61,925 nucleotides of DNA from Planctomycetota bacterium (GTDB lineage: Bacteria > Planctomycetota > Phycisphaerae > Phycisphaerales > SM1A02), in assembly GCA_027618565.1 (NCBI GenBank), contig JAQCEQ010000013.1, forward strand, positions 1-61,925, given 5' to 3'. A program made the position numbers and the translations under genes. Each line of letters opens with the position of its first letter. Position 1 is the first letter of the stretch. Positions 37,057 through 50,671 of the stretch are shown piece after piece. The notes beneath the pieces were generated by a model. It was not told where the DNA came from, ran no database searches, and saw only the letters and a list, made by a program, of their open reading frames with translations.

Positions 37057-37557
37057 ATGCCGCAGGTCATCCACGCCTCGCATGGCACGATGCTGATCTC
37101 CAGCCGTGCCTATGCCCACAACGACATCATCCTCTCCATCGATGTTGGTGTCGGCATTTCGCTGGCGCCAAATCGGTACAGCGTCCAGATCGGCGTGAGG
37201 GCACATGTCTTGCCGCCACGCGACTTGCCCCAGGACGCACCTCCCTACTGGAGATACCTGAACCATGCGTGCAACCCGAGCGGCCGCTGGGTCGGCTTGG
37301 ACCTACGCGCACGCCGGCCCATCGCCAAGGGCGACGAGCTGACCTTCGATTACCTCACCACCGAGTGGGAGATGAACGAGCCGTTCCAGTGTCGGTGCGG
37401 CTCCTGCGGCGGTCGCCGCATCTCCGGGTTTCGCCACGCCAGCGCCGAGGACCGACACGCGGTCGACGCCGAGCTGTCCCCGCACATCCGAGAGTTGTGG
37501 GCGACGCATGGTCTAACCAAACCGGCCCATGCGGCTGCTGCAGCACATATTCGCTGA
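37057..37557 (+). CDS. SET-domain protein-lysine methyltransferase homologue
   Basis: A 166-residue cytosolic protein, ATG at 37057 (MPQVIHASHG). It is a minimal SET domain: an N-terminal start with a G-rich turn, the knot motifs YLNHACNPS (67-75) and GDELTFDYLTTEW (92-104), and a post-SET-like Cys cluster (CRCGSC, Cys112/114/117) followed by GGRRISGF. These residues bind SAM and the target lysine in eukaryotic and bacterial SET enzymes. The substrate is unknown. Its last 29 bases overlap the start of the peptide synthetase gene, so the two are surely co-expressed, and a role in modifying that enzyme or its lysine-like product is an inference. Frames reading upstream from 36577 are shadows of the MFS remnant. 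Confidence 0.85.
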   Translation: MPQVIHASHGTMLISSRAYAHNDIILSIDVGVGISLAPNRYSVQIGVRAHVLPPRDLPQDAPPYWRYLNHACNPSGRWVGLDLRARRPIAKGDELTFDYLTTEWEMNEPFQCRCGSCGGRRISGFRHASAEDRHAVDAELSPHIRELWATHGLTKPAHAAAAAHIR

Positions 37558-40500
37558 GGCCGTCCGGCGACATGGCGACCAGGTCGCCGTCGACACGGCC
37601 TGCGCACACGCGCGGCGACGCGTGACCTACGACGAGTTGGCACGGGAGGTCGCCGGACTCGCCACCCAGATCCTCCCCGCATGCCGAAGTGCGGAACCGG
37701 AGCCCATCGTGGCGATCTGCTGCTCCCGCGAGGACGAGTGGCTCTATGTCGCGCAGTTGGCGGCCAACGCCGCGGGCGCTGCGTGGACGGTGATCGAGCC
37801 GGGAGCCCCCGATGCGCACCTCGAGCGCATCCTCAGGCTGGCGAAGCCCGTGGTGGTGCTCTGCACGCCGGATGAGATGGACCGCCTCCGCAGGATCACC
37901 TCCGCCCCCATCAGCCCACTGGGGCCCCTGCGCGAGCTCCCATCACTCGTGGAGGCGCTGTCGCTCCTGGAGCAACATCGGAGCGCCAGCCAATTGGCGT
38001 ATGTGATCTTCACTTCTGGAACCACTGGCTCGCCGAAGGGCGTTGAGATCGAACACCGCAGCATCGTCCAACTGGTGGATGGTGACCTGAAGGAATTCGG
38101 GCTTGGACCAAGCGACCGAGTCGCCCAATGTTCCTCGGGTGCGTACGACTCCTCGGTCGAAGAGGTGTGGCTTGCTCTCGCATCGGGCGCGGCACTGGTC
38201 CCCATTGACGATGTCACGCTACGAGGGGGACCCGATCTGGCCGAGTTTCTCCGCCGCGAACGCATTACGGTCTTCTGCCCACCTCCCACTCTCCTACGAT
38301 CGATGGGCTGCGCCGATCCCGCGCGCGAGCTTCCCGACGTTCGATTCGTGTACGTCGGCGGCGAGCAACTTCCACAAGACATCGCGGACGCTTGGAGCGT
38401 CGGGCGTCGGCTGGAGAATGGCTACGGGCCCACGGAGTGCACCGTCACGGTCGTGCGTGCGACCATCCGTCCCGGCGAGTCAGTCTCCATCGGCCGACCG
38501 ATTCCCGGCTCAGCGGTGCACATCCTCGCTCTTGACGGGGACGGAATCGTTGCCGACGATGCCGCAGGGGAATTGTGCGTGTCAGGCGCGTCTCTGGCAC
38601 GAGGGTATCGCGGCGCAACCGATGCTGATGCCTCTCGATTCACGACACACCCGGTTTCGCGGCTGCGGCTCTATCGAACGGGCGACCTCGCGAGGCGACG
38701 CGGCGATGGCACGCTGGAATGCCTGGGTCGCGTGGATGGCCAGGTCAAGGTTCGCGGCCATCGAATCGAACTGGGCGCGATTGAAGCAGCCTGCGCGTCG
38801 GCGCCGGGCGTTCGGGAGGCAGGGGCGCGCCTCCACGGGAGCGGAACGGGTGCGCGACTCGCGGCCTACTTGGTATCCGAGGGCACTGCGGGCGCGGGTG
38901 CAGTGGAATTGCAACGTGTCCGAGATCACCTTCTGCGCACGCTTCCGCCGCCCCAGGTGCCATCACACCTTGAGTGGATCAAGGCGCTCCCGAGATCGAC
39001 CAGCGGCAAGCTGGATCGCCTTGCGCTTCCCGAGGCTCCCAGCCGCCCCAGCCACCCCAGCGCACCCTTAGGGCACGACGACACTGCCGCCGGACTCGTC
39101 CTCCTCGCCTTTGCCAGCGCCGTGTCGGTTCCCGAGGGCGTGCCCCCATCGACCCTTGTGGACTTGGACTTCTTCCACGACTTGGCGGGCGACTCACTGG
39201 CCGTCACAGCCGTTGTGGTGGCGCTCCGGCGCCACCACAACTGGTCACGCACGAGTGTGCGCGATGTCGTGCAACACCCAACCGCGCGTTCGCTCGCAGC
39301 ACATCTGGAGTCGCGCACCGGACCGGCTCCGTCGACTGCTCCCACGGAGGCAGCTGAGTGGCATGCAACGGCGGGAGCGGGGAGCACACACACTCCCAGG
39401 CGAACAACGTGGCAGGTCGAGGCTCGACCAGCGACCTCCACCGCCGTTCAAGTGTCGGTCATCGCGGTTGGCTGGATCGTGCACGGCGTCATCGGCGCGT
39501 GGCTCATCTTCGCCGCCTTGCCCTGGTCACTCGATCGGTTGGGTCTGGGGCTGACTGTGCTCCTCATTGGCATCGCCACGCCCCTCGCGCGCACACTCTG
39601 GCTCCTCACAACGGTGCTGGCCACGGTCGTCACAAAGCGAGTGCTGGTGGGACGCGTCGAACCGGGTCGGGTTGCTGTCTGGAGCCATCGATGGACGCGA
39701 CTCTGGATCGTCGGGAGAGTGTCGCGCTCGATCCCGTGGGGACTCATCTCCAGCACCACCATGCAGGGCTGGGTGCTGCGATCGCTGGGTGCACGCGTCG
39801 GTGAACGCGTGGAGTTCGACCCCGGCGTGGCGTTTCCGCGCGCCACCTGGGACCTGCTGGACATTGGGGACGATGCCGTGATTGGCACCGATGCCCTCCT
39901 TCAGATGAGTCGGCTGGAAGACGGACTGCTGATCCTGGATCGGGTGTCCATCGGAGCCCGGGCGGTCATCGACACACGCGCAGTTGTCGGGACTGGCGCC
40001 GTGGTTGGTGCGGACACCACCGTCGCGCCGCTCGCGGTGCTGGCGAAAGACACTCGGACGGGCGACCGCGAACACTGGGCTGGAAATCCGGCGAAGAAGA
40101 GTGGAGGAGCGCATTCGACCCCTGCTCCGGACGCGCCTTCCAACGCCGACTCTCCATTCCGCCACGCCGCCATGATCTTCGGGATGCGACTTTTTGCGGG
40201 GACCATTCCGCTCTTGGCGCTTGTCGCGTTCCTGGATCGCACCGGGATCGGTCGACGAGTCAGCGACCTGGTCGAGGGATGGCTGCTCATTCCGCAATTT
40301 GACTTGGGTGTGGCGCTCGCCATAGGGCTGGGGACCGGCGTGATCTCCGGAGGGTGGCTCCTCTATGAAGCAGTCTCATGCCGCGTGATGGGACGGTGCC
40401 GCCCGGGTTGGCATCCTCGGTTCGGGACTGAGTCCGTCCGAGTGCAGCGCAAGTTGGACCGAGTGGCGCACGCCGCGTGTTGGCTCAGCGGATCCCTGCT

Positions 40501-41548
40501 GTGGACCGCGTGGCTCCGACTCGCCGGCATGAGAATTGGCAAGCAGTCCGAAGTCTCCACGGTCGTCGGCGCCATCCCGGAGTTGGTGAGCCTCGGAGAC
40601 CGGTGCTTCCTGGCCGATGGCACGTACTTCCAGTGTGCATCGGGCGGGTCCACTGGACTGTGCCTCTCGGAGGTGCAACTTGGAGATCACACGTTCATAG
40701 GGAACTACGCCGTTGTCGACGCAGGTCGCCAAGAGGCAGGATTGTTCCTCGGTGTCGCCACGCATTCCCCCGACCCCATCCACCAGCAGGACAACCCCAA
40801 GACTGCTTGGGTCGGCAATCCTCCGCTGGCGTTCCCTCGCATGACCGGCGCCGCCGACCCTGCGGCCTTTCACCCAGGCGGTGTGGCGATCGGCCGCCGG
40901 CTCGGGTGGGAACTGGGGCGATTCGCTCTGCCAATCGTTCCGGTCACGCTGACACTCTTTGCGTACGCGATCTTGATTCCCGCGGCTGTGGGAGTGGGTT
41001 GGATCACCCGGTTCGCGGTGACCGGCGCCGTCGCGCTGGCGATCAGCGTGATGATGCTGGTCTGCGCCATTGCGCTCAAGTGGCTGCTGCTTGGCCGCGT
41101 GCGGCCGGGAACGCGCGGATTCTGGTCCGGCTGGACCTGCCGTTGGGAGTTCCAGTACATGGCGTGGGAGATTTGGGCTCCTGCTCTCATAAAGGACCTG
41201 GAGAACACGCTGGCGTGGAACTGGGTACTGAGGCTTCTAGGCGCGCGCATTGGCACCGGCGTCGTCGTGGCGACCAACGCGGGTGAGGTGGTCGACCCCG
41301 ACCAGATTGAGTACGACGACCATGCCACGGTGGCCGGACTCATCCAGGCACACACCTTTGAAGATCGACTCCTCAAGGTGGACCGCGTGCGTATCGGCCG
41401 AGGTGCCACGCTGGGTGAACACGCACTGCTGATGGCTGGTGCGTCGCTTGGCGACCACGCGATCGCTCACCCAGGAGCATTACTGCTCAAGGGCGAATCA
41501 ATCGCGAATCATGCGGTCGTTGCCGGGAGCCCATCGGTTCCGGCGTGA
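37529..41548 (+). CDS. Pls/PosA-type single-module non-ribosomal peptide synthetase
   Basis: A 1339-residue membrane synthetase. Residues 1-500 are an adenylation domain: YVIFTSGTTGSPKGVE (A3, 158-173), AYDSSVEEVW (A4), NGYGPTECTV (A5), YRTGDLARRRGDG (A7) and PRSTSGKLDRL (A10). A carrier domain follows with phosphopantetheine Ser556 (FFHDLAGDSLAV). After a Thr/Ala linker the C-terminal ~690 residues alternate predicted helix pairs with left-handed-beta-helix hexapeptide segments (IGDDAVIGTDALLQ, LGDHTFIGNYAVV, IGRGATLGEHALLM). There is no condensation or thioesterase domain. This is the epsilon-poly-lysine synthetase (Pls) and PosA layout, which polymerises one amino acid via isopeptide bonds. 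Against the GrsA numbering I place Glu211 and Glu296 in the pocket, favouring a basic substrate (manual alignment). Confidence 0.9.
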   Translation: MRLLQHIFAEAVRRHGDQVAVDTACAHARRRVTYDELAREVAGLATQILPACRSAEPEPIVAICCSREDEWLYVAQLAANAAGAAWTVIEPGAPDAHLERILRLAKPVVVLCTPDEMDRLRRITSAPISPLGPLRELPSLVEALSLLEQHRSASQLAYVIFTSGTTGSPKGVEIEHRSIVQLVDGDLKEFGLGPSDRVAQCSSGAYDSSVEEVWLALASGAALVPIDDVTLRGGPDLAEFLRRERITVFCPPPTLLRSMGCADPARELPDVRFVYVGGEQLPQDIADAWSVGRRLENGYGPTECTVTVVRATIRPGESVSIGRPIPGSAVHILALDGDGIVADDAAGELCVSGASLARGYRGATDADASRFTTHPVSRLRLYRTGDLARRRGDGTLECLGRVDGQVKVRGHRIELGAIEAACASAPGVREAGARLHGSGTGARLAAYLVSEGTAGAGAVELQRVRDHLLRTLPPPQVPSHLEWIKALPRSTSGKLDRLALPEAPSRPSHPSAPLGHDDTAAGLVLLAFASAVSVPEGVPPSTLVDLDFFHDLAGDSLAVTAVVVALRRHHNWSRTSVRDVVQHPTARSLAAHLESRTGPAPSTAPTEAAEWHATAGAGSTHTPRRTTWQVEARPATSTAVQVSVIAVGWIVHGVIGAWLIFAALPWSLDRLGLGLTVLLIGIATPLARTLWLLTTVLATVVTKRVLVGRVEPGRVAVWSHRWTRLWIVGRVSRSIPWGLISSTTMQGWVLRSLGARVGERVEFDPGVAFPRATWDLLDIGDDAVIGTDALLQMSRLEDGLLILDRVSIGARAVIDTRAVVGTGAVVGADTTVAPLAVLAKDTRTGDREHWAGNPAKKSGGAHSTPAPDAPSNADSPFRHAAMIFGMRLFAGTIPLLALVAFLDRTGIGRRVSDLVEGWLLIPQFDLGVALAIGLGTGVISGGWLLYEAVSCRVMGRCRPGWHPRFGTESVRVQRKLDRVAHAACWLSGSLLWTAWLRLAGMRIGKQSEVSTVVGAIPELVSLGDRCFLADGTYFQCASGGSTGLCLSEVQLGDHTFIGNYAVVDAGRQEAGLFLGVATHSPDPIHQQDNPKTAWVGNPPLAFPRMTGAADPAAFHPGGVAIGRRLGWELGRFALPIVPVTLTLFAYAILIPAAVGVGWITRFAVTGAVALAISVMMLVCAIALKWLLLGRVRPGTRGFWSGWTCRWEFQYMAWEIWAPALIKDLENTLAWNWVLRLLGARIGTGVVVATNAGEVVDPDQIEYDDHATVAGLIQAHTFEDRLLKVDRVRIGRGATLGEHALLMAGASLGDHAIAHPGALLLKGESIANHAVVAGSPSVPA

Positions 41549-41553
41549 GGTCT

Positions 41554-42795
41554 CTACCGCACCACGATGTGCAGCACGCTGACATCATCATCAAAGTCCG
41601 CACGGCCTGAATAGGCGCGCGCCTCGGCGAGCACTGGTTCGACCGCGGCGACGCCCTGCCGCGCGGCGGCATCCAATGCGGCACGCCCCACCTCCAGGAA
41701 CTCCTCGATCGGCCGCACCCCCAACGGAGGTACCGCGCCCGCCGGCACGAAAGGCTGCAGTTCGTGAATGCCGTCGCTATAGACCATGAGATGCGAGCCC
41801 GCCGGAACGCTTGCTGAGCCGGATTGATACGCCAGTCCCTTGATCGCCCCCATGACGAGCCCCGACACTTCTTCCTCGCCACCCAAGAGCCGGAATGCCC
41901 CATCAGGCAATCGCAGGAGGACGGGGGGATGTCCGCCGCAGCCGTAGCGCAGCTCGTGCGTGGTGATGTCGATGACGCCGTACCACAGCGTGAAGAACAT
42001 GCCGTTGTGCATGGACATCGGGTACATCACATTGAGCGCAGTAAGCACCGCCCCCGGGTCGCCAGGATCTGCCCCCGCCACTACGCCAGCGCCAAGTGCA
42101 TTCATGACGCTCACTCCCAACAGCGCTGGGCCAACGCCATGGCCGCAGACATCCAAGAGATAGATCGCGAAGTGTGTGTCGTCGATCCATCGGTAGCCGA
42201 AGGCATCGCCACCAAGACTTGCGGAGGGGAGGAATTCCCAGTGGGTCTCAATGGATCCGGTGATCGGAGCGGGGATGAGTCGTCGAACATAGGCCGCGGC
42301 ACTTTCCAGCTCCGCTCGAAGGGCGTCAAAGGCCCGGTCGCGCTCCACCTGCGCTCTGTTGACACGCGCGTGGTATCGGATGCGTGCCACCAGCTCCACG
42401 GGGTCCGGCAACTTGACGAGGTAGTCGTTCGCGCCGCGCGCGAAGGCCTCTGCCTTCGTCGCGGCATCTTCCTTGGTGCTCAGCACAATGAGGGGCACGC
42501 GGGCCATCGCGGCGTCGGCTCGATACGCGCGCACCAGGTCAAGCCCATCGGCGTCCGGCATCACCAGGTCCTGGAGGATCACATCGGGCTGCTCGGCCCG
42601 CGCACGCTCCACGGCCTCGGCTCCCTTGAGGCACGCCACGAGGGAAAGGTCGGCTTGTGATGCAAGCATCCGACGAACCGCCTCGGCGATCATGGCTTGG
42701 TCATCCACGATCATGACCTTGAGTGGTGCGTCCAGTGCGACGGAGCTGGCGGGAATGGCGACGCTTCTGATGGGGGCGGTGGCTGGAGAACTCAT
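41554..42795 (-). CDS. Response regulator with SpoIIE/PP2C-type phosphatase output
   Basis: A 413-residue cytosolic protein, last gene of the Wsp-like operon. A receiver domain (about 24-150) has the acidic pair Asp31-Asp32, phospho-acceptor Asp76 (VILQDLVMP) and the conserved Thr/Ser and Lys (LIVLSTKED, YLVKLPDP). A linker and a PPM/SpoIIE-type Ser/Thr phosphatase domain follow (GGDAFGYRWIDD, LLDVCGHGVGPALLG, FTLWYGVIDITTHELRYGCG, LMVYSDGIHE, DFDDDVSVL), with the metal-binding aspartates in place. RsbU-type enzymes dephosphorylate STAS anti-sigma antagonists. In Pseudomonas Wsp this position is held by the diguanylate cyclase WspR. The start codon shares its A with the stop of the CheB-like gene (TGATG). 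Confidence 0.9.
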   Translation of the reverse strand: MSSPATAPIRSVAIPASSVALDAPLKVMIVDDQAMIAEAVRRMLASQADLSLVACLKGAEAVERARAEQPDVILQDLVMPDADGLDLVRAYRADAAMARVPLIVLSTKEDAATKAEAFARGANDYLVKLPDPVELVARIRYHARVNRAQVERDRAFDALRAELESAAAYVRRLIPAPITGSIETHWEFLPSASLGGDAFGYRWIDDTHFAIYLLDVCGHGVGPALLGVSVMNALGAGVVAGADPGDPGAVLTALNVMYPMSMHNGMFFTLWYGVIDITTHELRYGCGGHPPVLLRLPDGAFRLLGGEEEVSGLVMGAIKGLAYQSGSASVPAGSHLMVYSDGIHELQPFVPAGAVPPLGVRPIEEFLEVGRAALDAAARQGVAAVEPVLAEARAYSGRADFDDDVSVLHIVVR

Positions 42796-43922
42796 CAGGG
42801 CACTCTCTTCACAGTTGAATCGGCCATCGCGTGAACCACGGCGGCGCCGATGGTCTCGATGGCGTGACATCGATCGACTGCGCCGATCGACTTGGCCTCA
42901 CCGGGCATTCCCCACACGACGCTCGTGTTCCGATCTTGCGCGAACGTCTGCCACCCAGCGCGGCGGAGCGTGAGCAGTCCGCTGGCACCATCGCGCCCCA
43001 TGCCGGTGAGGAGCACGGCGGCACCTCCACCTGGACGCACACGCGCTGCTGACTCGAACATCGTGTTGATCGACGGGCTGTGCACATCTGAGGGCTTGCC
43101 TGGGAGCGACACCACCGCGCCCGAGGGACCGATGGCGAGATGCTTTCCGCCCTCCGCGACCAGCACGTCCCCGGCGACTGGTTCCTGTCCTGCGCGCGCC
43201 AGGCTCACGCGATGGCCGATCCTGCCTGCGAGCCAGGTCGCAAACCCCGGCAGGAATTGTGGGTCCATGTGTTGGACGATGATCGATGCCACCGATCGAG
43301 ATCCAGCGCCGACCGCGATTCCCGCTCGCGCCCGGTCCCATCCCGCGAAGAAGTCAACGATCGCCTGAGGGCCTCCTGTCGACGCCCCGATGAGCAGCAA
43401 CGAGTCGACCACCGTCGAGGAACCGGGTTCTGCCGATCGTCGAAGAAGAGAATCGACCGCCACCGGAGAAGCCGCGGGTGGAGCAGACGCTGGACCAGCC
43501 TTGGCTCGGAAAGCCTCAGACTCGATCGCCGCGCGAACCGCAGCGATCTTTCCAAGCAACTTGCCTGCATCGCCGCCCGCCGCACCGCCCGACGACATCC
43601 GTGGCGTATCGACGGCATCCAGCGCCCCCGCAGAGATGGCCTCATATACGCCGGGAGCGTTTCCCTCCACCGTGGCGGTGACCACGATCACCGGGCACGC
43701 AGACTGTCCCATGATCTGACGAGTCGCCTCAACACCGCCCATGCGGGGCATCACAAGGTCCATGAGCACCAAGTCGGGAGTGTCAGCGCGACACTTGGCC
43801 ACGGCCTCGTCTCCGTCGTTGGCCACCCAGGCCAGCTCCGCACCAGGCACCAACGCGACCGCTCGCTTGAGGGCTTCCCGGGCCATGGCCAGGTCGTTCA
43901 CGATTGCAATTCGGTAGACCAT
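42795..43922 (-). CDS. wspF: CheB/WspF-type protein-glutamate methylesterase
   Basis: A 375-residue chemotaxis adaptation enzyme. The receiver has phospho-acceptor Asp55 (LVLMDLVMPRMGG). A ~50-residue linker leads to the catalytic domain with Ser181 (GASTGGPQA), His218 (IVQHMDP) and Asp311 (LLTGMGRDGASGL), the CheB triad. The methylesterase removes methyl groups from the MCP and resets signalling; phosphorylation by the CheA-like kinase activates it. It lies 27 bases downstream of the kinase gene and one base overlaps the next gene, matching the wspE-wspF-wspR order of Pseudomonas. Confidence 0.92.
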   Translation of the reverse strand: MVYRIAIVNDLAMAREALKRAVALVPGAELAWVANDGDEAVAKCRADTPDLVLMDLVMPRMGGVEATRQIMGQSACPVIVVTATVEGNAPGVYEAISAGALDAVDTPRMSSGGAAGGDAGKLLGKIAAVRAAIESEAFRAKAGPASAPPAASPVAVDSLLRRSAEPGSSTVVDSLLLIGASTGGPQAIVDFFAGWDRARAGIAVGAGSRSVASIIVQHMDPQFLPGFATWLAGRIGHRVSLARAGQEPVAGDVLVAEGGKHLAIGPSGAVVSLPGKPSDVHSPSINTMFESAARVRPGGGAAVLLTGMGRDGASGLLTLRRAGWQTFAQDRNTSVVWGMPGEAKSIGAVDRCHAIETIGAAVVHAMADSTVKRVP

Positions 43923-43949
43923 ACGGTAGTGCGCGATCAGCAGGAGAGA

Positions 43950-46208
43950 CTACGGCGCGCCGATCAGGTTCGTGATCGTGGCGGCGAAGGTTTGGTCGTG
44001 AAACGAACCCTTGGTGAGGTAGGCATTGGCGCCGGCATCCAGTCCCGCGCGGCGGTCCTCTTCTCGATCCTTATAGGACACGACGGCAATCGGGAAATGG
44101 GCGAACCGCTGGTCGGCGCGCACCAGCTTGACCAGCTCGATGCCATTCATGCGCGGCATGTCGATGTCGGTCACCATCAAGTCAAACGCGCCAGCGCGGA
44201 GTTGGTTCCACGCGTCGATGCCATCGACGGCCACCGCGACTTGGTACCCCATCCGGGTCAGCAACTGTCGCTCCACCTCCCGCACGGTGATGGAATCGTC
44301 GACCACCAGCACGCGCTTCAACGCAGCGGCGAGGTGGATCTCGTGGCTGGCCGCACCCAAGCCGCGGAGTGTGCCCTCCGTGAGCCCCTTTCGGAGCGTC
44401 GCCAGCATGTCTTCCACATCCACGATGAGAGCCGGCGCGCCGTCATCCAGGATCGCGGCACTGCTGATGTGCGGCACCTTGCCCAGTCGTCGGTCAAGGC
44501 TGCGCACCACCAGGTCCTGTTCGCCAAGGAATCGATTCACAACGAGGCCGACGGACCCATGCTCGTCACCGAGCAGGACCACGCTGGTCACCTCGCTCCG
44601 CGACGCTTCACCAAAGCCCAGGACCGCCGCGCCATCCAGAAGTCCGACCGACTCGCCATCGACCTGGCATTGCAGTCGTCCCTGCACGGTGGTGACATCG
44701 TCCCCCTCCAATCGCAGCACGCGTTCAATCCGTGCCAGCGGGAAGGCGTAGGGCTCCCCGCCGATCTCGACCAGTGCCGCCCGGAGCACGCTGAGCGTGA
44801 CTGGAAGCGTGAGCGAAAAAGTGGTCCCGATGCCTAGTCGACTCTCTAGGCGCACGGTTCCGGCGGTTGACGTGACCATCTGTTGCACAACATCCAGCCC
44901 CACGCCGCGCCCGGAGACTTCCGTCACCGAACTGGCGGTCGAGAATCCGGGGAGGAAGAGGAAGTCAAACAGCTCGCGTTCACCAAGCGTGTTGGCGACT
45001 TCACGCGTCTGCATGCCGCGCTCGATGACGCGTTCCCGAATGCGTTCTACCGGAATGCCGCGACCATCGTCGGAGACAAGGACCAGCAGTTGCCCGGCCT
45101 GATGTCGCGCCTCCACAACGAGTCGCGCCTGCGATGGCTTGCCCGCCGCTCGACGGTCGTCCGGCCTCTCGACACCGTGATCCAGCGCATTGCGGATGAT
45201 GTGGTTGAGCGGTGCCTCCAGCCGCGCCAGGATGTCGCGATCAACGGGGACATGGCCGCCGACGATGTCCAGGTGCACATCCTTCCCAAGCTTCCGCGCC
45301 AAGTCCCGAACCATTCGCGGGAAGCCGGCCACGCCCTCTCGGAATGGGCGCATCCGACTCCCGACCACTTCGTAGTAGAGCGCGGTGGAGACCTCTTCCG
45401 TGCGTCGAAAGAACGCCTCCAGCTCGGCGATGCGTGCGACCAGCGCCGCTTCGACCTCGGCCACCGACTCGTCCACCTCTCGCAGCGACTCCACTCCCGC
45501 GCGGCGGACGGCTTCTTCCACGGCGCTGCGAAGTCGACGGGTGTCACTGCGGAGCGAGGCGAGGGCACGGCGCAATGCCGGTGAACGACGACCCTCCACC
45601 ATCGATTCACCCGCCAGCTGCATCATTCGATCCAAGTTCTCGGCGTTCACCCGCACAGTCCGCGCGTCGGGGATTTCCGCGGCGCTGGCCCCTCCCGACG
45701 ATGCTGCCTCGACGCGCGGTATCGCCGCGGGTTCGGTCAGCAGTTCGCTGGGCTTTGCCGCCACTTCCACCAACCCTGGGGCCGCGGTCACCGTGGTATC
45801 GCCCGATGCCGGAGGCGCAGCGCCAAGGGCTACGACAAGCCTGTCGATCTCGGCGCGATGCCGATCGGCCCATCCGGCAATCTCGGCCTCGTCCTGCCGC
45901 GAAAGCCGCTCCAGCAGGTCCGTGCCGGCGAGCAGTTGGTCGATCCGGCCACGAGTGGCCGTTTCAGCTCCCTTCTGCATGCGAACGAGCGCGTCTTCCA
46001 TATGGTGCGCCACGGAAACCGCGGCGTCCACGCCGACAATCCTCGCCGCCCCCTTCATGGAGTGCGCGGCACGCATGAGCGGCACGATCACGCCAAGGTC
46101 CGTCGGCGCCTGCTCCAGCTGGATCAATCCCTCGTTGAGGGCAGCACAGTGCGTCTCCACCTCGGCACGGAAGAGCTCAAAGAGGCTGAAGCCCGACAGG
46201 TCGCTCAT
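43950..46208 (-). CDS. wspE: WspE-type hybrid CheA histidine kinase/response regulator
   Basis: A 752-residue soluble kinase starting at the ATG ending at 46208. The Hpt domain holds phospho-His49 (MRAAHSMKGAARIVG). The dimerisation and ATPase core shows N-box HIIRNALDHGVE, DDGRGIPVERI and GRGVGLDVV with FSTASSVTEVSG. A CheW-like regulatory domain follows (VLRAALVEIGGEPYAFPLAR), then a C-terminal receiver with Asp681 (DLMVTDIDMPRMNG). There is no separate CheY-binding P2 domain, as in WspE. It probably phosphorylates the CheB-like protein and the phosphatase regulator, with its own receiver as a sink. Its ATG overlaps the stop of the CheW-like gene by four bases. Confidence 0.93.
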   Translation of the reverse strand: MSDLSGFSLFELFRAEVETHCAALNEGLIQLEQAPTDLGVIVPLMRAAHSMKGAARIVGVDAAVSVAHHMEDALVRMQKGAETATRGRIDQLLAGTDLLERLSRQDEAEIAGWADRHRAEIDRLVVALGAAPPASGDTTVTAAPGLVEVAAKPSELLTEPAAIPRVEAASSGGASAAEIPDARTVRVNAENLDRMMQLAGESMVEGRRSPALRRALASLRSDTRRLRSAVEEAVRRAGVESLREVDESVAEVEAALVARIAELEAFFRRTEEVSTALYYEVVGSRMRPFREGVAGFPRMVRDLARKLGKDVHLDIVGGHVPVDRDILARLEAPLNHIIRNALDHGVERPDDRRAAGKPSQARLVVEARHQAGQLLVLVSDDGRGIPVERIRERVIERGMQTREVANTLGERELFDFLFLPGFSTASSVTEVSGRGVGLDVVQQMVTSTAGTVRLESRLGIGTTFSLTLPVTLSVLRAALVEIGGEPYAFPLARIERVLRLEGDDVTTVQGRLQCQVDGESVGLLDGAAVLGFGEASRSEVTSVVLLGDEHGSVGLVVNRFLGEQDLVVRSLDRRLGKVPHISSAAILDDGAPALIVDVEDMLATLRKGLTEGTLRGLGAASHEIHLAAALKRVLVVDDSITVREVERQLLTRMGYQVAVAVDGIDAWNQLRAGAFDLMVTDIDMPRMNGIELVKLVRADQRFAHFPIAVVSYKDREEDRRAGLDAGANAYLTKGSFHDQTFAATITNLIGAP

Positions 46209-46825
46209 CGAATGGCCCCCTGCGCCACACACCCAAGGGCCTTCGCATCAAGCACGATCACCTCGCGACCGCTCAGTCGCGCCAGCGCGTCAGTGCATCC
46301 ATTGTGTGCCGCCGCCAGCGTGAGTGGCGGCTTGCGCAGTTCCGCAGCGTCCAGGTCCTCGACACCAAAGATGCGGTCGACCTCGATCGCCCAACGACGT
46401 CGCGACTCCTCGATGACGACAAGCGGCCGATTCGGGACGGCACTCCCGGGCACTGCCTTCCCAGCCTGCTGCGCGCCGGCATCCAAGCCGAGCGCTCGCT
46501 CAAGGGCAAAGCACAGCAACAGCTCGCCTTCGTGGTTGGCGATGCCGCGGAAGATGCTGTTGGTGCGGTGCGGGACTCGATGACGCGGCGCGCGCGCGAT
46601 CACCATCGCAACATCGGCGGCACGGAACGCCATCGTTTCACCACCGCATTCAACAAGGAGCAGGCTCACCCGGTCAAGTCCCACCTCGATGATGGGCGCT
46701 GCCAGGGCTCGCGTGGCAGCGTCCAGATCTGCGTCGGACAACGGCTTGCCAAAGAGTTCGCGCATTCCGGGACGTGCCAATGCTCGGGAATCAGCGGGCT
46801 GGGGGCCACGAGGAGGCTGCGTCAC
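46205..46825 (-). CDS. wspD: WspD-type CheW coupling protein
   Basis: A 206-residue CheW-family adaptor that docks the kinase to the receptor. After an N-terminal helical extension (MRELFGKPLSDADLDAATRA) typical of WspD, the CheW core follows: VSLLLVECGGETMAFRAADV, VIARAPRHRVPHRTNSIFRG, IANHEGELLLCFALERALGL and VIEESRRRWAIEVDRIFGVE. Start and stop both overlap their neighbours by four bases (46822-46825 and 46205-46208), showing strict translational coupling. Confidence 0.9.
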   Translation of the reverse strand: MTQPPRGPQPADSRALARPGMRELFGKPLSDADLDAATRALAAPIIEVGLDRVSLLLVECGGETMAFRAADVAMVIARAPRHRVPHRTNSIFRGIANHEGELLLCFALERALGLDAGAQQAGKAVPGSAVPNRPLVVIEESRRRWAIEVDRIFGVEDLDAAELRKPPLTLAAAHNGCTDALARLSGREVIVLDAKALGCVAQGAIR

Positions 46826-48045
46826 GATTCACCTCCGGCGCCGAGGCTGGCGCGTTGGCGGAAGCGACGACCACCCTCCATGTCACCGCGACGCTCCGCC
46901 AGCACCGCCATCGTGAGGAGCGCCTCGTCGTGATTCGGCTCGGCGTAAACCACTTGCCTGAGCCACTGCTCGGCGGCGGGGTCGTCGCCCGCGGCGAGGG
47001 CCAGTGTCCCCAGCAGGTGGAGCAGCGCGGGCTCACGCGCGCCACCCGCGTGCAAGGCCGTTGCTGCAGTGCGAGCCTCGTCCAATCGACCCTCGTCCGC
47101 GGCACGCTGGGCGCCCAGGAAGGTGGCTTGGCTGCCCCCCCCATTCGGGGCCGCTGCAATATCTCCGCCACGCGATGATGGAGCGGGTGGCCGCGGCTCT
47201 GCGTGCGTGTCGTGACGGCGTCGAAACATGAACGCCGAGGCCGGGGCGGCCTGAAGCGAGACCAGTTCAGCGTCGAGCCCCAAGAGTGCGGGCCGATCGG
47301 CGTGGCCGAGGAGCACGATTCCGTGCGCCGCCAACAGTCGCGTGATCTGCACGCCGATCTCCCTCCGACCAGCCTCGTTGAGGTAGATGGCGAGGTTTCG
47401 GCAATAGACCACGTCATAGATGGCCGCCGGCCGCTGGAGCAGGCACATCGGTGCCGACCCGCATTCGAAGGTGCATCGCTCCCTCACTTGTGGATCGATC
47501 CGTGGCATCCCATTGTGCATGGTGACCCAGCGCTGAGCCCAGGCGGGAAGTTCTGCACGGAGCGCCATGCGCGGCAACTGACCCGACGTAGCCGCCTCGA
47601 TCGCCGCCGCGTTCGGGTCGAGCGCGTCCGCCTGTACGGTGCGAACAGCCATTGAGGGATCCAGTCCACACTCCACGAGTGCGGACGCTGACGCAATCAT
47701 GGCCGAGAGCGGCTCGGCGCCGCTCGCGCACGCGATGCTGAGGATGCGCAGGGGTCGTTGCTCCGACCAACGGTGCCGGTGTTCCACCACCCAGCGTCGC
47801 AAGTACTCAAATGAATCCGGGTACCGAAACAGCCAGGTCTCCGGCACGGCGATCTGCGCGCGAAGCCAGCCCACCTCCTCGTCGCTGCGCTCCACGAGCT
47901 CGGCGTACTGCACCGGCGAATCCATCCGATGCTTCGAACATCGCTCCGCAACGAGAGCCGACAGCGACGGCGTGCGCACCAACTCCGGCTGCAGTCGCTC
48001 CCTGATGAGCCGATGCGCAATGCGATCCAATGCATCATCGCTCAT
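46822..48045 (-). CDS. wspC: WspC-type CheR methyltransferase with TPR tail
   Basis: A 407-residue SAM-dependent methyltransferase that methylates glutamates on the chemoreceptor. The N-terminal all-alpha part (MSDDALDRIAHRLIRERLQP) is followed by the CheR core: ETWLFRYPDSFEYLRRWVV, SAM motif ILSIACASGAEPLSAMIA and VVYCRNLAIYLNEAGRRE. The last ~110 residues, after a Pro/Gly linker, form TPR-like helices (EGRLDEARTAATALHAGG, AAEQWLRQVVYAEPNHDEAL) as in WspC. It starts at 48045, overlapping the wspB-like stop by four bases; upstream-extended frames to 48207 are not needed. Confidence 0.92.
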   Translation of the reverse strand: MSDDALDRIAHRLIRERLQPELVRTPSLSALVAERCSKHRMDSPVQYAELVERSDEEVGWLRAQIAVPETWLFRYPDSFEYLRRWVVEHRHRWSEQRPLRILSIACASGAEPLSAMIASASALVECGLDPSMAVRTVQADALDPNAAAIEAATSGQLPRMALRAELPAWAQRWVTMHNGMPRIDPQVRERCTFECGSAPMCLLQRPAAIYDVVYCRNLAIYLNEAGRREIGVQITRLLAAHGIVLLGHADRPALLGLDAELVSLQAAPASAFMFRRRHDTHAEPRPPAPSSRGGDIAAAPNGGGSQATFLGAQRAADEGRLDEARTAATALHAGGAREPALLHLLGTLALAAGDDPAAEQWLRQVVYAEPNHDEALLTMAVLAERRGDMEGGRRFRQRASLGAGGES

Positions 48046-48563
48046 GCCGTCCGACTCCTGGCCAGTTCGGAGGTCGCGTGCGGTGCCGGAGCGGTCAACT
48101 GCGCGTGCGCGCGAGCAAGCATCGCTGGGTGGAATCGCTGGAGCGCCTGTCCATCGAGCCGCTCCACCGCACCGATCCAGGCGGCGGCGCCGGGACCGGA
48201 TTCCCACCGACCAGCCTCAGGAACCACAGCGTCATCCTCCAAGGCGTCCACGGACATCGCGAATCGAAACACTCGAGCCTCAGTCGGTGAGCCGGCCATC
48301 TCCGCGCCCCCCTCCCCCGAGCCGAGCGACGACTCCATGACCAAGACTCGCGCGCCGAGGGTTGGCGCCACTGATCCCGTGCCCAGAAGGAGTCGCGCGC
48401 CGTCCACGAGTGGGAGCAGGCTGCCGTGCACGTCGATGACTCCCGTCACGAAGGGGGGCGCCGCTTGCACCGGCTGTGCGCGCACCAGCGGATGCACCGA
48501 CTTCACGATCGACGACTCGATCGCGAACCGGTACCCGCCAACAACTACGACGAAGGACCGCAT
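48042..48563 (-). CDS. wspB: WspB-type CheW coupling protein
   Basis: A 173-residue CheW-like adaptor, shorter than the WspD-like protein. The core is recognisable: FVVVVGGYRFAIESSIVKSV, FVTGVIDVHGSLLPLVDGAR, ARVLVMESSLG, then FRFAMSVDALEDDA. Two CheW-type adaptors per operon are a hallmark of Wsp systems. It shares one base with the receptor gene's stop and four with the CheR-like start. Confidence 0.88.
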   Translation of the reverse strand: MRSFVVVVGGYRFAIESSIVKSVHPLVRAQPVQAAPPFVTGVIDVHGSLLPLVDGARLLLGTGSVAPTLGARVLVMESSLGSGEGGAEMAGSPTEARVFRFAMSVDALEDDAVVPEAGRWESGPGAAAWIGAVERLDGQALQRFHPAMLARAHAQLTAPAPHATSELARSRTA

Positions 48564-50671
48564 CAGTCTCCTCGCAACCGGAATGCGGCGACGGCCGTGC
48601 GAAGCGTGCCGACCGCGGTGCGAAGTTGTTCCGAGGCCTTGCCAAACTCGCTGACCACATCCGCCGTCGTGCGGGCGTTTGCAGAGAGCGTTCCCATGGC
48701 ATCGCAGATCTGCGTGGCTCCCGCGGCTTGGCTCCGCATGCCTTCGCGCACCGTGGCGAAACTTCGCGAGTTCTCGGCCACGGCCGCGATGATGCCGGAC
48801 ACCCGTTGTCCCACTTCCTTGACCTCTTCCACGTTGCGTCGGACCTGGTCGTTGAATCGATCCATCTCCATCACGCCGCTGGACACGGCTCCGCGCATCT
48901 CCTTCACCATGCGCTCGATGTCCAGCGTGGCCTGTGCGGTCTGGTCGGCCAGCCTGCGGATCTCGCGGGCGACCACCAAGAACCCGCGGCCGTACTCGCC
49001 CGCCTTTTCAGCTTCGATCGCGGCATTCACGGAGAGCAGGTTTGTCTGGTCGGCAACCTTGGTGATCGTCACCACGACGCTGCCGATGTTTACCGCCTTC
49101 TCATTGATCGTGGCCAGCCGGTCGGCGATACCGACCGTGGCAGCGTTGAGCGCCTGCATCGCATGCTCCATCGCATCCAGCCGCTGCGTCCCTTCCTGCG
49201 CCCCCTTCGCCGACGCCTGCGCGCGCTCGTTGACGGCATCCATCTCGTGCGCAAGCTCCTGCCCCGTGGTGGTGATCTGGCGGGCGGCCACCGCGATCTC
49301 GGCGCTGCTGGAGCCAAAGGTCGCCACCACTTCCTCTTGCCGCTTGGACGACGCAGCCAACTGGTTGCTGGTGGAACCAATCTCCAGGCCGGCCTCGCGC
49401 ACTTGCCCCACCAGCCTGTTCAGGTCGCTGGTCATGCTGTCCAGCGCACGGAGCAGGTCGCCCGTCTCGTCAATCTCCGTGCTGCCCGAGGGTACCGAAG
49501 TGAGGTCACCCTGCGCGACGCATTGAGCTGAGGTGGCCGCCACCAACATGCGGCCGGCGACTCGCCGCGCAGCGAACAGCACCAATCCCGCAATGAGCAC
49601 CATCCCAAGCCCCGCGACGCCAAGTGTCTTGGCGGTGCTCGCCATGATGGGACCCAGGATTCGATCCGATGGCACGCTCATCACGAGGTACCAGTTGCCC
49701 GTGGCGATGTGCGCGACCGAGAAGAACGACTCGCCACCCGCGGCGGGATCCTCTCGTTCCGTCGTTACTTTGCGAGCCGAGAGTTCTCCCCAGATCGGCC
49801 CGTATGCCGTCTCCGCGACCTGCACTGTTCGCCAGTCGCGGAGCGGAACGCCATACGTGCGATCGGTTCCGTCCGACGCCACGACGACGCGGCCGCGGCC
49901 CGTGACCACGACGATGTCCACATCCAACTCCGCAGCTTGGCGATCGATTTCGACCTGAAGGTCTTCCAGAGCACGATCCGCTCCGATGACGCCGACAAAG
50001 GCGCCGTCTCGGATGATCGGGGTCATGTTCTCGACCATCAGCTTGCCCTCATACGCGTAGGGCTCGGTGAGAATCGTGCTGGCATCGTGCCGCTTGGTCC
50101 AGTTCTCCAACGGCAGCTGGTACCACATGTCCGAGTCCATGCCGGTGAGCGCCTTCAAGCCGATCGCATTGCCGTTCTTCCAATCTCGGAACCAATAGGC
50201 AAGCATCCGGCCGTCCTCGTCGATCGCGCCAGCGGGAACCATCGACGCGTCATTTCCGTCGGCGTTTGGCTCGTAGCCGATGCCGATTCCAGTGATCTGC
50301 GGTGCGGCCTCAAGTGCGGCACGGCCGAGCCGAAGGGTGGCCTCACGACTCCCGAAAAATCCACCAGCCTCCATTTGCGAGGCCGCCAGCGACCGCGAGA
50401 CCTGGAAGTTGCGCGCAATGTCCGCCTCCACCCAACTGGCCAGGCTTCTGGCTTCCCACTCCAGAATGTCCTTCGCGTCGTCAAGCGTTCTGTTGTAGGT
50501 ATCCCACGCCGCGACTCCGGCGACGGCGAGCATCACCACGATTGTGGGCGCAAGACTGGCCAGCAGCAACTTGCCCAGCAGGCTTCGATGAAATGCCCGT
50601 TGGCGGTGGTCCTGCGTGAGGGTCACCGCGTGAGAATAGGTTGAATTGAACTCAGGGCGGCGAGCCTGCAA
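48563..50671 (-). CDS. wspA: WspA-type methyl-accepting chemoreceptor
   Basis: A transmembrane receptor of up to 702 residues. A first helix (KLLLASLAPTIVVMLAVAGV) leads to a ~280-residue periplasmic dCache-like sensor (ITGIGIGYEPNADGND, YAYEGKLMVENMTPIIRDGA, GADRALEDLQVEID). The second helix (LGVAGLGMVLIAGLVLFAAR), a HAMP-like segment and the cytoplasmic signalling hairpin follow, with tip TNLLSVNAAIEAEKAGEYGR and LVVAREIRRLADQ. The ligand is unknown; WspA of Pseudomonas senses surface contact. The start is uncertain: a TTG at 50671 or a GTG at 50626, neither with a strong ribosome site. First gene of the seven-gene unit; the promoter should lie between here and 51030, but the 42-base gap to the zinc-ribbon gene is short. 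Confidence 0.9.
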   Translation of the reverse strand: MQARRPEFNSTYSHAVTLTQDHRQRAFHRSLLGKLLLASLAPTIVVMLAVAGVAAWDTYNRTLDDAKDILEWEARSLASWVEADIARNFQVSRSLAASQMEAGGFFGSREATLRLGRAALEAAPQITGIGIGYEPNADGNDASMVPAGAIDEDGRMLAYWFRDWKNGNAIGLKALTGMDSDMWYQLPLENWTKRHDASTILTEPYAYEGKLMVENMTPIIRDGAFVGVIGADRALEDLQVEIDRQAAELDVDIVVVTGRGRVVVASDGTDRTYGVPLRDWRTVQVAETAYGPIWGELSARKVTTEREDPAAGGESFFSVAHIATGNWYLVMSVPSDRILGPIMASTAKTLGVAGLGMVLIAGLVLFAARRVAGRMLVAATSAQCVAQGDLTSVPSGSTEIDETGDLLRALDSMTSDLNRLVGQVREAGLEIGSTSNQLAASSKRQEEVVATFGSSSAEIAVAARQITTTGQELAHEMDAVNERAQASAKGAQEGTQRLDAMEHAMQALNAATVGIADRLATINEKAVNIGSVVVTITKVADQTNLLSVNAAIEAEKAGEYGRGFLVVAREIRRLADQTAQATLDIERMVKEMRGAVSSGVMEMDRFNDQVRRNVEEVKEVGQRVSGIIAAVAENSRSFATVREGMRSQAAGATQICDAMGTLSANARTTADVVSEFGKASEQLRTAVGTLRTAVAAFRLRGD

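Follow-up and report, generated by a model that had tools for sequence, protein, structure and literature searches.

The Wsp system, which senses surfaces, is taught as a cyclic di-GMP (c-di-GMP) pathway, and the locus described here raises the question of what a closely similar operon would control when its last gene encodes a phosphatase. The locus lies in a window of 61,925 nucleotides (the whole stretch of DNA analysed, on contig JAQCEQ010000013.1 of a Planctomycetota bacterium), to which coordinates given without a locus or contig label refer. It consists of seven co-directional genes on the minus strand, the last of which encodes a response regulator with a receiver (REC) fused to a SpoIIE-type PP2C phosphatase domain (REC-PP2C). 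An original prediction had proposed that this operon acts by dephosphorylation of a STAS-domain protein rather than through c-di-GMP. Our analysis points to a Wsp-type chemosensory complex, of the class associated with alternative cellular functions (ACF), that would have protein dephosphorylation as its output, a reading to which we assign a probability of roughly two in three.

The terminal regulator and the Wsp-type core

The REC-PP2C gene (41554-42795; 413 amino acids) stands at the position of WspR, and Pfam recognized both of its halves (Response_reg, 1.1e-21; SpoIIE, 4.7e-28). When compared to the PDB, the receiver (amino acids 27-140; 42376-42717) matched Pseudomonas WspR (3bre and 3i5a) with 137 and 133 bits, versus 64 bits for the next entry, and it shares 57-59% identity with the receiver domains of REC-GGDEF regulators from the Wsp operons of Azoarcus, Mesorhizobium and Cupriavidus. 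A long helical linker (amino acids 132-173; 42277-42402), modelled by AlphaFold as one continuous helix, connects it to the phosphatase domain, whose Pfam-matched part spans 41566-42183 (PF07228, 100.8 bits). Asp76, the predicted phospho-acceptor, and the receiver residue Lys128 are invariant in all 48 aligned REC-PP2C homologues, and the catalytic residues of the receiver are also invariant across 12 family orthologues. The metal-binding residues of the PP2C domain (D197, D215, D341, D403 and D404) likewise do not vary among these 12 orthologues, and their conservation in the 48 homologues is 90% or more. By sequence comparison, REC-PP2C is a WspR-type receiver on a SpoIIE/RsbU-like PP2C domain, and its receiver-helix-PP2C architecture, with intact catalytic residues, is that of partner-switching regulators. 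The original prediction had placed exactly this fusion where WspR normally sits, with Asp76 as acceptor; Pfam, PDB and structure comparisons bear out the former, and the invariance of Asp76 agrees with the latter.

The AlphaFold monomer model of REC-PP2C (predicted local distance difference test, pLDDT, 92.5) gave RssB as its top match in Foldseek, and WspR, SiaA-PP2C, Rv1364c and SpoIIE were also matched. The phosphatase half is closest to Pseudomonas aeruginosa RssB both by sequence and by structure. With RssB as best match to this half and to the whole protein, REC-PP2C could be a phosphorylation-controlled adaptor, like RssB in sigma-S degradation, and not an enzyme. We consider this quite improbable, since none of the catalytic residues varies within the family and the receiver is of the WspR type; WspR leads the PDB matches listed for it, and RssB is not among them. 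Moreover, the NCBIfam RssB equivalog model (NF045505) scores 88.7 bits on REC-PP2C versus a cutoff of 700, and P. aeruginosa RssB is itself stated to retain an active phosphatase domain (PMC12143880).

The gene order of the operon, from the methyl-accepting chemotaxis protein (MCP) through CheW, CheR, CheW, CheA and CheB to the regulator, is identical in the Wsp operons of Azoarcus and Mesorhizobium, which end with a diguanylate cyclase/PleD-family regulator. Its CheA, which has an Hpt domain and a C-terminal receiver, is 44-46% identical to the Wsp CheAs of these two bacteria, as compared to 31% for a non-Wsp CheA (locus L161), and is nearest to other Wsp CheAs by identity and in a tree. These values uphold the Wsp gene order that had been read from the sequence. 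With the Wsp operon of Pseudomonas and other Proteobacteria (WspA-B-C-D-E-F-R) the planctomycete operon shares the seven-gene order, a CheR with a putative TPR-like region, two CheWs, a CheA fused to a receiver, CheB and a WspR-type receiver; the difference lies in the output domain, which is GGDEF there and PP2C here. Since order and CheA similarity are Wsp-like, and GGDEF alone is missing from the position of WspR, we regard the operon as a Wsp-type core in which GGDEF is swapped for PP2C, and not as a Wsp system proper. It also displays the hallmarks of the ACF class, namely a multidomain response regulator (REC-PP2C) and a probably non-flagellar output. Because no FliG was found in the assembly, a flagellar output is unlikely and the operon looks like a non-flagellar chemosensory system; flagellar chemotaxis was rejected on these grounds.

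The host genome is a 2.26-Mb draft of 62 contigs, 96.8% complete, and its single GGDEF protein is a REC-GGDEF protein encoded on contig C4. Since no other GGDEF protein was found in the assembly and this one carries a receiver, it could be the true target of the kinase, in which case the operon would be an ordinary Wsp system with a relocated WspR. Its receiver, however, is PleD-like (91 bits to PleD, with WspR not among the matches listed), and its gene has unrelated neighbours, with a RecO-like gene next to it. We thus rejected it as a displaced WspR, and hold it to be a most improbable target. The original prediction had named a GGDEF-containing WspR homologue elsewhere, phosphorylated by the kinase, as the finding that would speak against it; the PleD-like character of the C4 protein answers this in part.

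Conservation and components of the operon

Conservation was analyzed in 61 related genomes, using an orthologue cutoff of E < 1e-90 for CheA and for REC-PP2C. The two proteins have orthologues in one identical set of 12 genomes and in no others, encoded by adjacent genes in each (Fisher p = 6e-13 for the 61 genomes and 5e-10 within the family, values that are indicative only, as the genomes are not independent). Gene order is preserved in the complete family loci, while the locus of genome G036 is reduced and has no adjacent MCP, CheR or CheB.

For a wider sample, a genome collection was scanned with a REC-PP2C alignment; the best 80 loci (1.24 Mb altogether) were kept, and synteny was scored on all of their open reading frames with hidden Markov models. 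The loci come from about ten phyla, namely Planctomycetota, Pseudomonadota, Desulfobacterota, Acidobacteriota, Verrucomicrobiota, Lentisphaerota, Chlamydiota, Ignavibacteriota, Elusimicrobiota and Chloroflexota, as taken from record titles, some of which may belong to misnamed bins. Where at least 8.5 kb of upstream sequence was present (48 loci), the six core genes are co-directional in 28 loci and all but the MCP gene in a further 7 (35/48); as the loci were picked via REC-PP2C, these counts reflect the tightness of its tie to the core and not the frequency of PP2C among Wsp cores. Methylococcus capsulatus and Desulfoferrobacter suflitae have operons of this kind, too, and that of D. suflitae is accompanied by linked genes for RsbW and STAS proteins. 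The recurrence that the original prediction had proposed to look for in planctomycete genomes is found well beyond them. Being conserved in the family and across phyla, the arrangement is not due to chance.

Other settings of the regulator were seen in the same sample. Five loci (L091, L094, L100, L108 and L112) carry an orphan REC-PP2C gene that has no che core nearby and is followed by a gene for a protein of 399 amino acids, recognizable by eye as EF-Tu (tuf) in the sequences of L091, L100 and L108. In L132 and L136 (Gemmata and Schlesneria records), REC-PP2C is divergent from a different, more distant CheA operon. REC-PP2C is also present in L085, L119 and L122, titled environmental Chlamydiae, with a che core in two of them.

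In the window, Pfam supports each domain of the operon except for the TPR region, and all recognizable catalytic residues that were checked are intact. The first gene, at the WspA position, encodes the MCP (48563-50626; MCPsignal, 2.5e-31), with a weak PDC-like periplasmic sensor that falls slightly under the Pfam cutoff (MCP-like_PDC_1, 26.5 bits versus 27). Its likeliest start is, tentatively, the GTG at 50626 rather than the upstream TTG at 50671 given originally. It is followed by CheW coupling protein 1 at the WspB position (48042-48563; CheW, 1.5e-9), whose start overlaps the MCP stop, and by the CheR methyltransferase at the WspC position (46822-48045; CheR, 6e-22). The C-terminal TPR-like region of the latter was matched below the curated cutoff by TPR_19 (E = 4.9e-4) and, in the same region, by a second TPR model (3e-4). 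CheW coupling protein 2 (46205-46825; CheW, 1.3e-16) holds the WspD position, and the hybrid kinase CheA (43950-46208), with the domain order Hpt-dimer-HATPase-CheW-REC from Pfam and motifs, that of WspE; His49 of the Hpt domain, the ATPase boxes and the acceptor aspartate of the receiver, in the motif TDIDMP, are intact. At the WspF position lies the methylesterase CheB with its receiver (42795-43922; CheB_methylest, 2.4e-42), which has the catalytic motifs GASTGG, QHM and GMGRDG and is the sole CheB in the assembly; chemoreceptors number two. Five of the six gene junctions overlap, which confirms the start/stop coupling noted earlier at most of them: in operon order these are TGATG, ATGA, GTGA and ATGA, then the CheA/CheB junction with its gap of 27 nt as the exception, and finally TGATG, where the ATG of REC-PP2C overlaps the CheB stop. 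The neighbours checked beside the operon include ApbE, DUF72 and other unrelated genes. A convergent gene on the plus strand (37529-41548) encodes a protein of 1339 amino acids with AMP-binding, phosphopantetheine and hexapeptide-transferase domains.

Partner switching as the putative output

In the mechanism that we propose, the receptor, the two CheWs and CheA would form a kinase array that is tuned by CheR and CheB, and CheA would phosphorylate Asp76 of the WspR-type receiver. Phosphorylation would then pair two subunits through the long linker helix, which is seen here in a monomer model, and switch on the PP2C domain, as has been proposed for RsbU and RssB. The active phosphatase would dephosphorylate a STAS-domain antagonist, and the latter could bind an RsbW-like kinase or anti-sigma protein and so free the final target. 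The idea that linker-driven dimerization brings about activation was put forward for RsbU and then carried over to receiver-PP2C proteins, among which RssB is a REC-helix-PP2C protein with a STAS partner (PMC12143880). A precedent for the phosphorylation step is HsbR, whose phosphorylated receiver triggers PP2C action on a STAS protein (PMC6482189). The pairs RssB/RssC, HsbR/HsbA and CrsR/CrsA all resemble the proposed scheme in combining a receiver, a helical linker and a PP2C domain and in placing a STAS protein under control of a phosphorylated receiver; they differ in that they were described with two-component kinases or HptB and not with a CheA array, and HsbR and CrsR have, in addition, a kinase/anti-sigma domain.

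The gene neighbourhoods of relatives bear on this scheme. Of the 80 loci, 11 have a gene for an RsbW-like kinase and/or a STAS protein close to the operon, in several cases immediately downstream of REC-PP2C. All five STAS matches in the 80 loci are close to the operon; outside its vicinity, we found one weak RsbW match (72 bits) and no STAS match in the sampled sequence. All seven linked proteins that were scanned with Pfam (five RsbW-like and two STAS) were upheld. Since RsbW-like and STAS genes recur beside the operon, they support partner switching as its predicted output.

Several observations weigh against this assignment. Linked RsbW or STAS genes occur in about one-seventh of the sampled loci, the majority having none, and the models used to search for RsbW and STAS genes had in part been retrained with matches from these same loci. 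In the window and in the family orthologues, no STAS, RsbW or anti-sigma gene was found near the operon. The three STAS genes of the host genome are all on other contigs (C62, C34 and C41), and among the 61 relatives the distribution of STAS/RsbW genes showed no tie to that of the operon, these genes being spread through the order whether it is there or not. Of the STAS output first proposed, the part that stands comes from the neighbourhoods of relatives; in the host genome, the STAS-RsbW-like pair on C62 and the other STAS proteins on C34 and C41 are candidate targets without linkage. On C62 (1514-2370, plus strand), the STAS gene lies immediately upstream of a gene for an RsbW-like HATPase, and a similar pair or its parts are found across the order.

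The shortage of linked genes, in the window as in most loci, would also fit a phosphatase that acts on a target other than a STAS protein, such as the substrate of a Hanks-type kinase or, as feedback, a component of the chemosensory complex. Characterised members of the SpoIIE type (PF07228), to which the domain belongs, act on STAS proteins, however, and linked RsbW/STAS genes do recur, so that we judge a non-STAS target improbable and retain STAS-directed dephosphorylation as the preferred reading.

Second outputs and the evolution of the core

A further point against that reading is a second WspR-type regulator, which could share or take the phosphate. It is a REC-GAF-HD-GYP protein (domains from Pfam) encoded on host contig C19, without linkage to the operon (L052:10790-12436, plus strand). 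WspR is the closest PDB match of its receiver (85 and 84 bits versus 58), which is also closest to that of REC-PP2C. Among the matches listed, WspR-type REC-HD-GYP proteins occur in 7 of the 12 operon carriers and in 1 of the 49 non-carriers (G007), an association with p = 1e-5, uncorrected for relatedness.

REC-HD-GYP genes also occur within or beside the operons of some relatives. One lies between CheB and REC-PP2C (L086:6563-7753, plus strand), and others immediately upstream of the core (L074:123-1895, L076:2699-4483 and L077:2470-4260, all plus strand); the receivers of at least two of the latter (L074 and L076) look degenerate. Between CheB and REC-PP2C, another locus carries a gene that joins a WspR-type receiver to a class III cyclase, confirmed by Pfam (L090:7687-9174, plus strand), and L093:8344-9804 (plus strand) probably encodes the same fusion, judging from its position and size.

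The HD-GYP proteins would suit a kinase whose main effect is to promote c-di-GMP breakdown via the unlinked C19 protein, with REC-PP2C as a second or minor branch. We regard this as unlikely: REC-PP2C alone is always within the operon, HD-GYP is not among the matches listed for 5 of the 12 carriers while it is present in the operon-less G007, and the C19 receiver scores far below that of REC-PP2C against WspR; the degenerate look of the L074 and L076 receivers points the same way. Protein dephosphorylation thus remains our preferred output, but since REC-HD-GYP and WspR-type cyclase proteins are found in the genome or in and beside the operons of relatives, the kinase may have two outputs, c-di-GMP possibly being involved in one of them. 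The contrast 'rather than c-di-GMP' in the original prediction was therefore overstated.

So was the view that the combination is unlike described systems. A 2012 survey of ACF clusters with cheR-TPR already lists PP2C among the receiver-fused output domains of their regulators (PMC3447774); its account of these clusters names no target for the PP2C type and offers neither an experiment nor an analysis of the operons, and Planctomycetes do not figure in it. In the open-access literature searched, no work on Wsp-type cores with PP2C as output came up; such clusters are already known as a kind but, as far as we found, unstudied. KEGG-based reports of WspE and WspR in freshwater planctomycetes (PMC6461901, PMC9119077) may include proteins of the REC-PP2C type.

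A quick CheA tree groups the GGDEF operons with two operons of Burkholderia in a single clade with full support, set among many operons of the PP2C type. This topology fits PP2C as the older output, in a tree that was mid-point rooted, with an uncertain root, and built on a biased sample, fetched by REC-PP2C with a few plasmid-borne GGDEF operons, which cannot order the outputs in time. In the Burkholderia Wsp operon of locus L160, a WspR-type receiver is again carried on another output, which differs in being a histidine kinase encoded upstream of the receptor (L160:1083-2222, plus strand). A possible, though rather doubtful, scenario is that, of the outputs of the Wsp core, PP2C-based partner switching is the older and the broader one, and that the c-di-GMP-making Wsp of Proteobacteria is derived, GGDEF having replaced PP2C. 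The WspR-type receiver would then serve as a plug for PP2C, GGDEF, HD-GYP, cyclase and histidine kinase outputs, sometimes with two per kinase.

Complete Wsp cores with a PP2C end occur across phyla, and many operons that are probably annotated as Wsp or WspR would then control protein dephosphorylation instead. These PP2C-ended operons probably govern partner switching, and, if this is true, chemoreceptor arrays with adaptation would be joined to anti-sigma networks.

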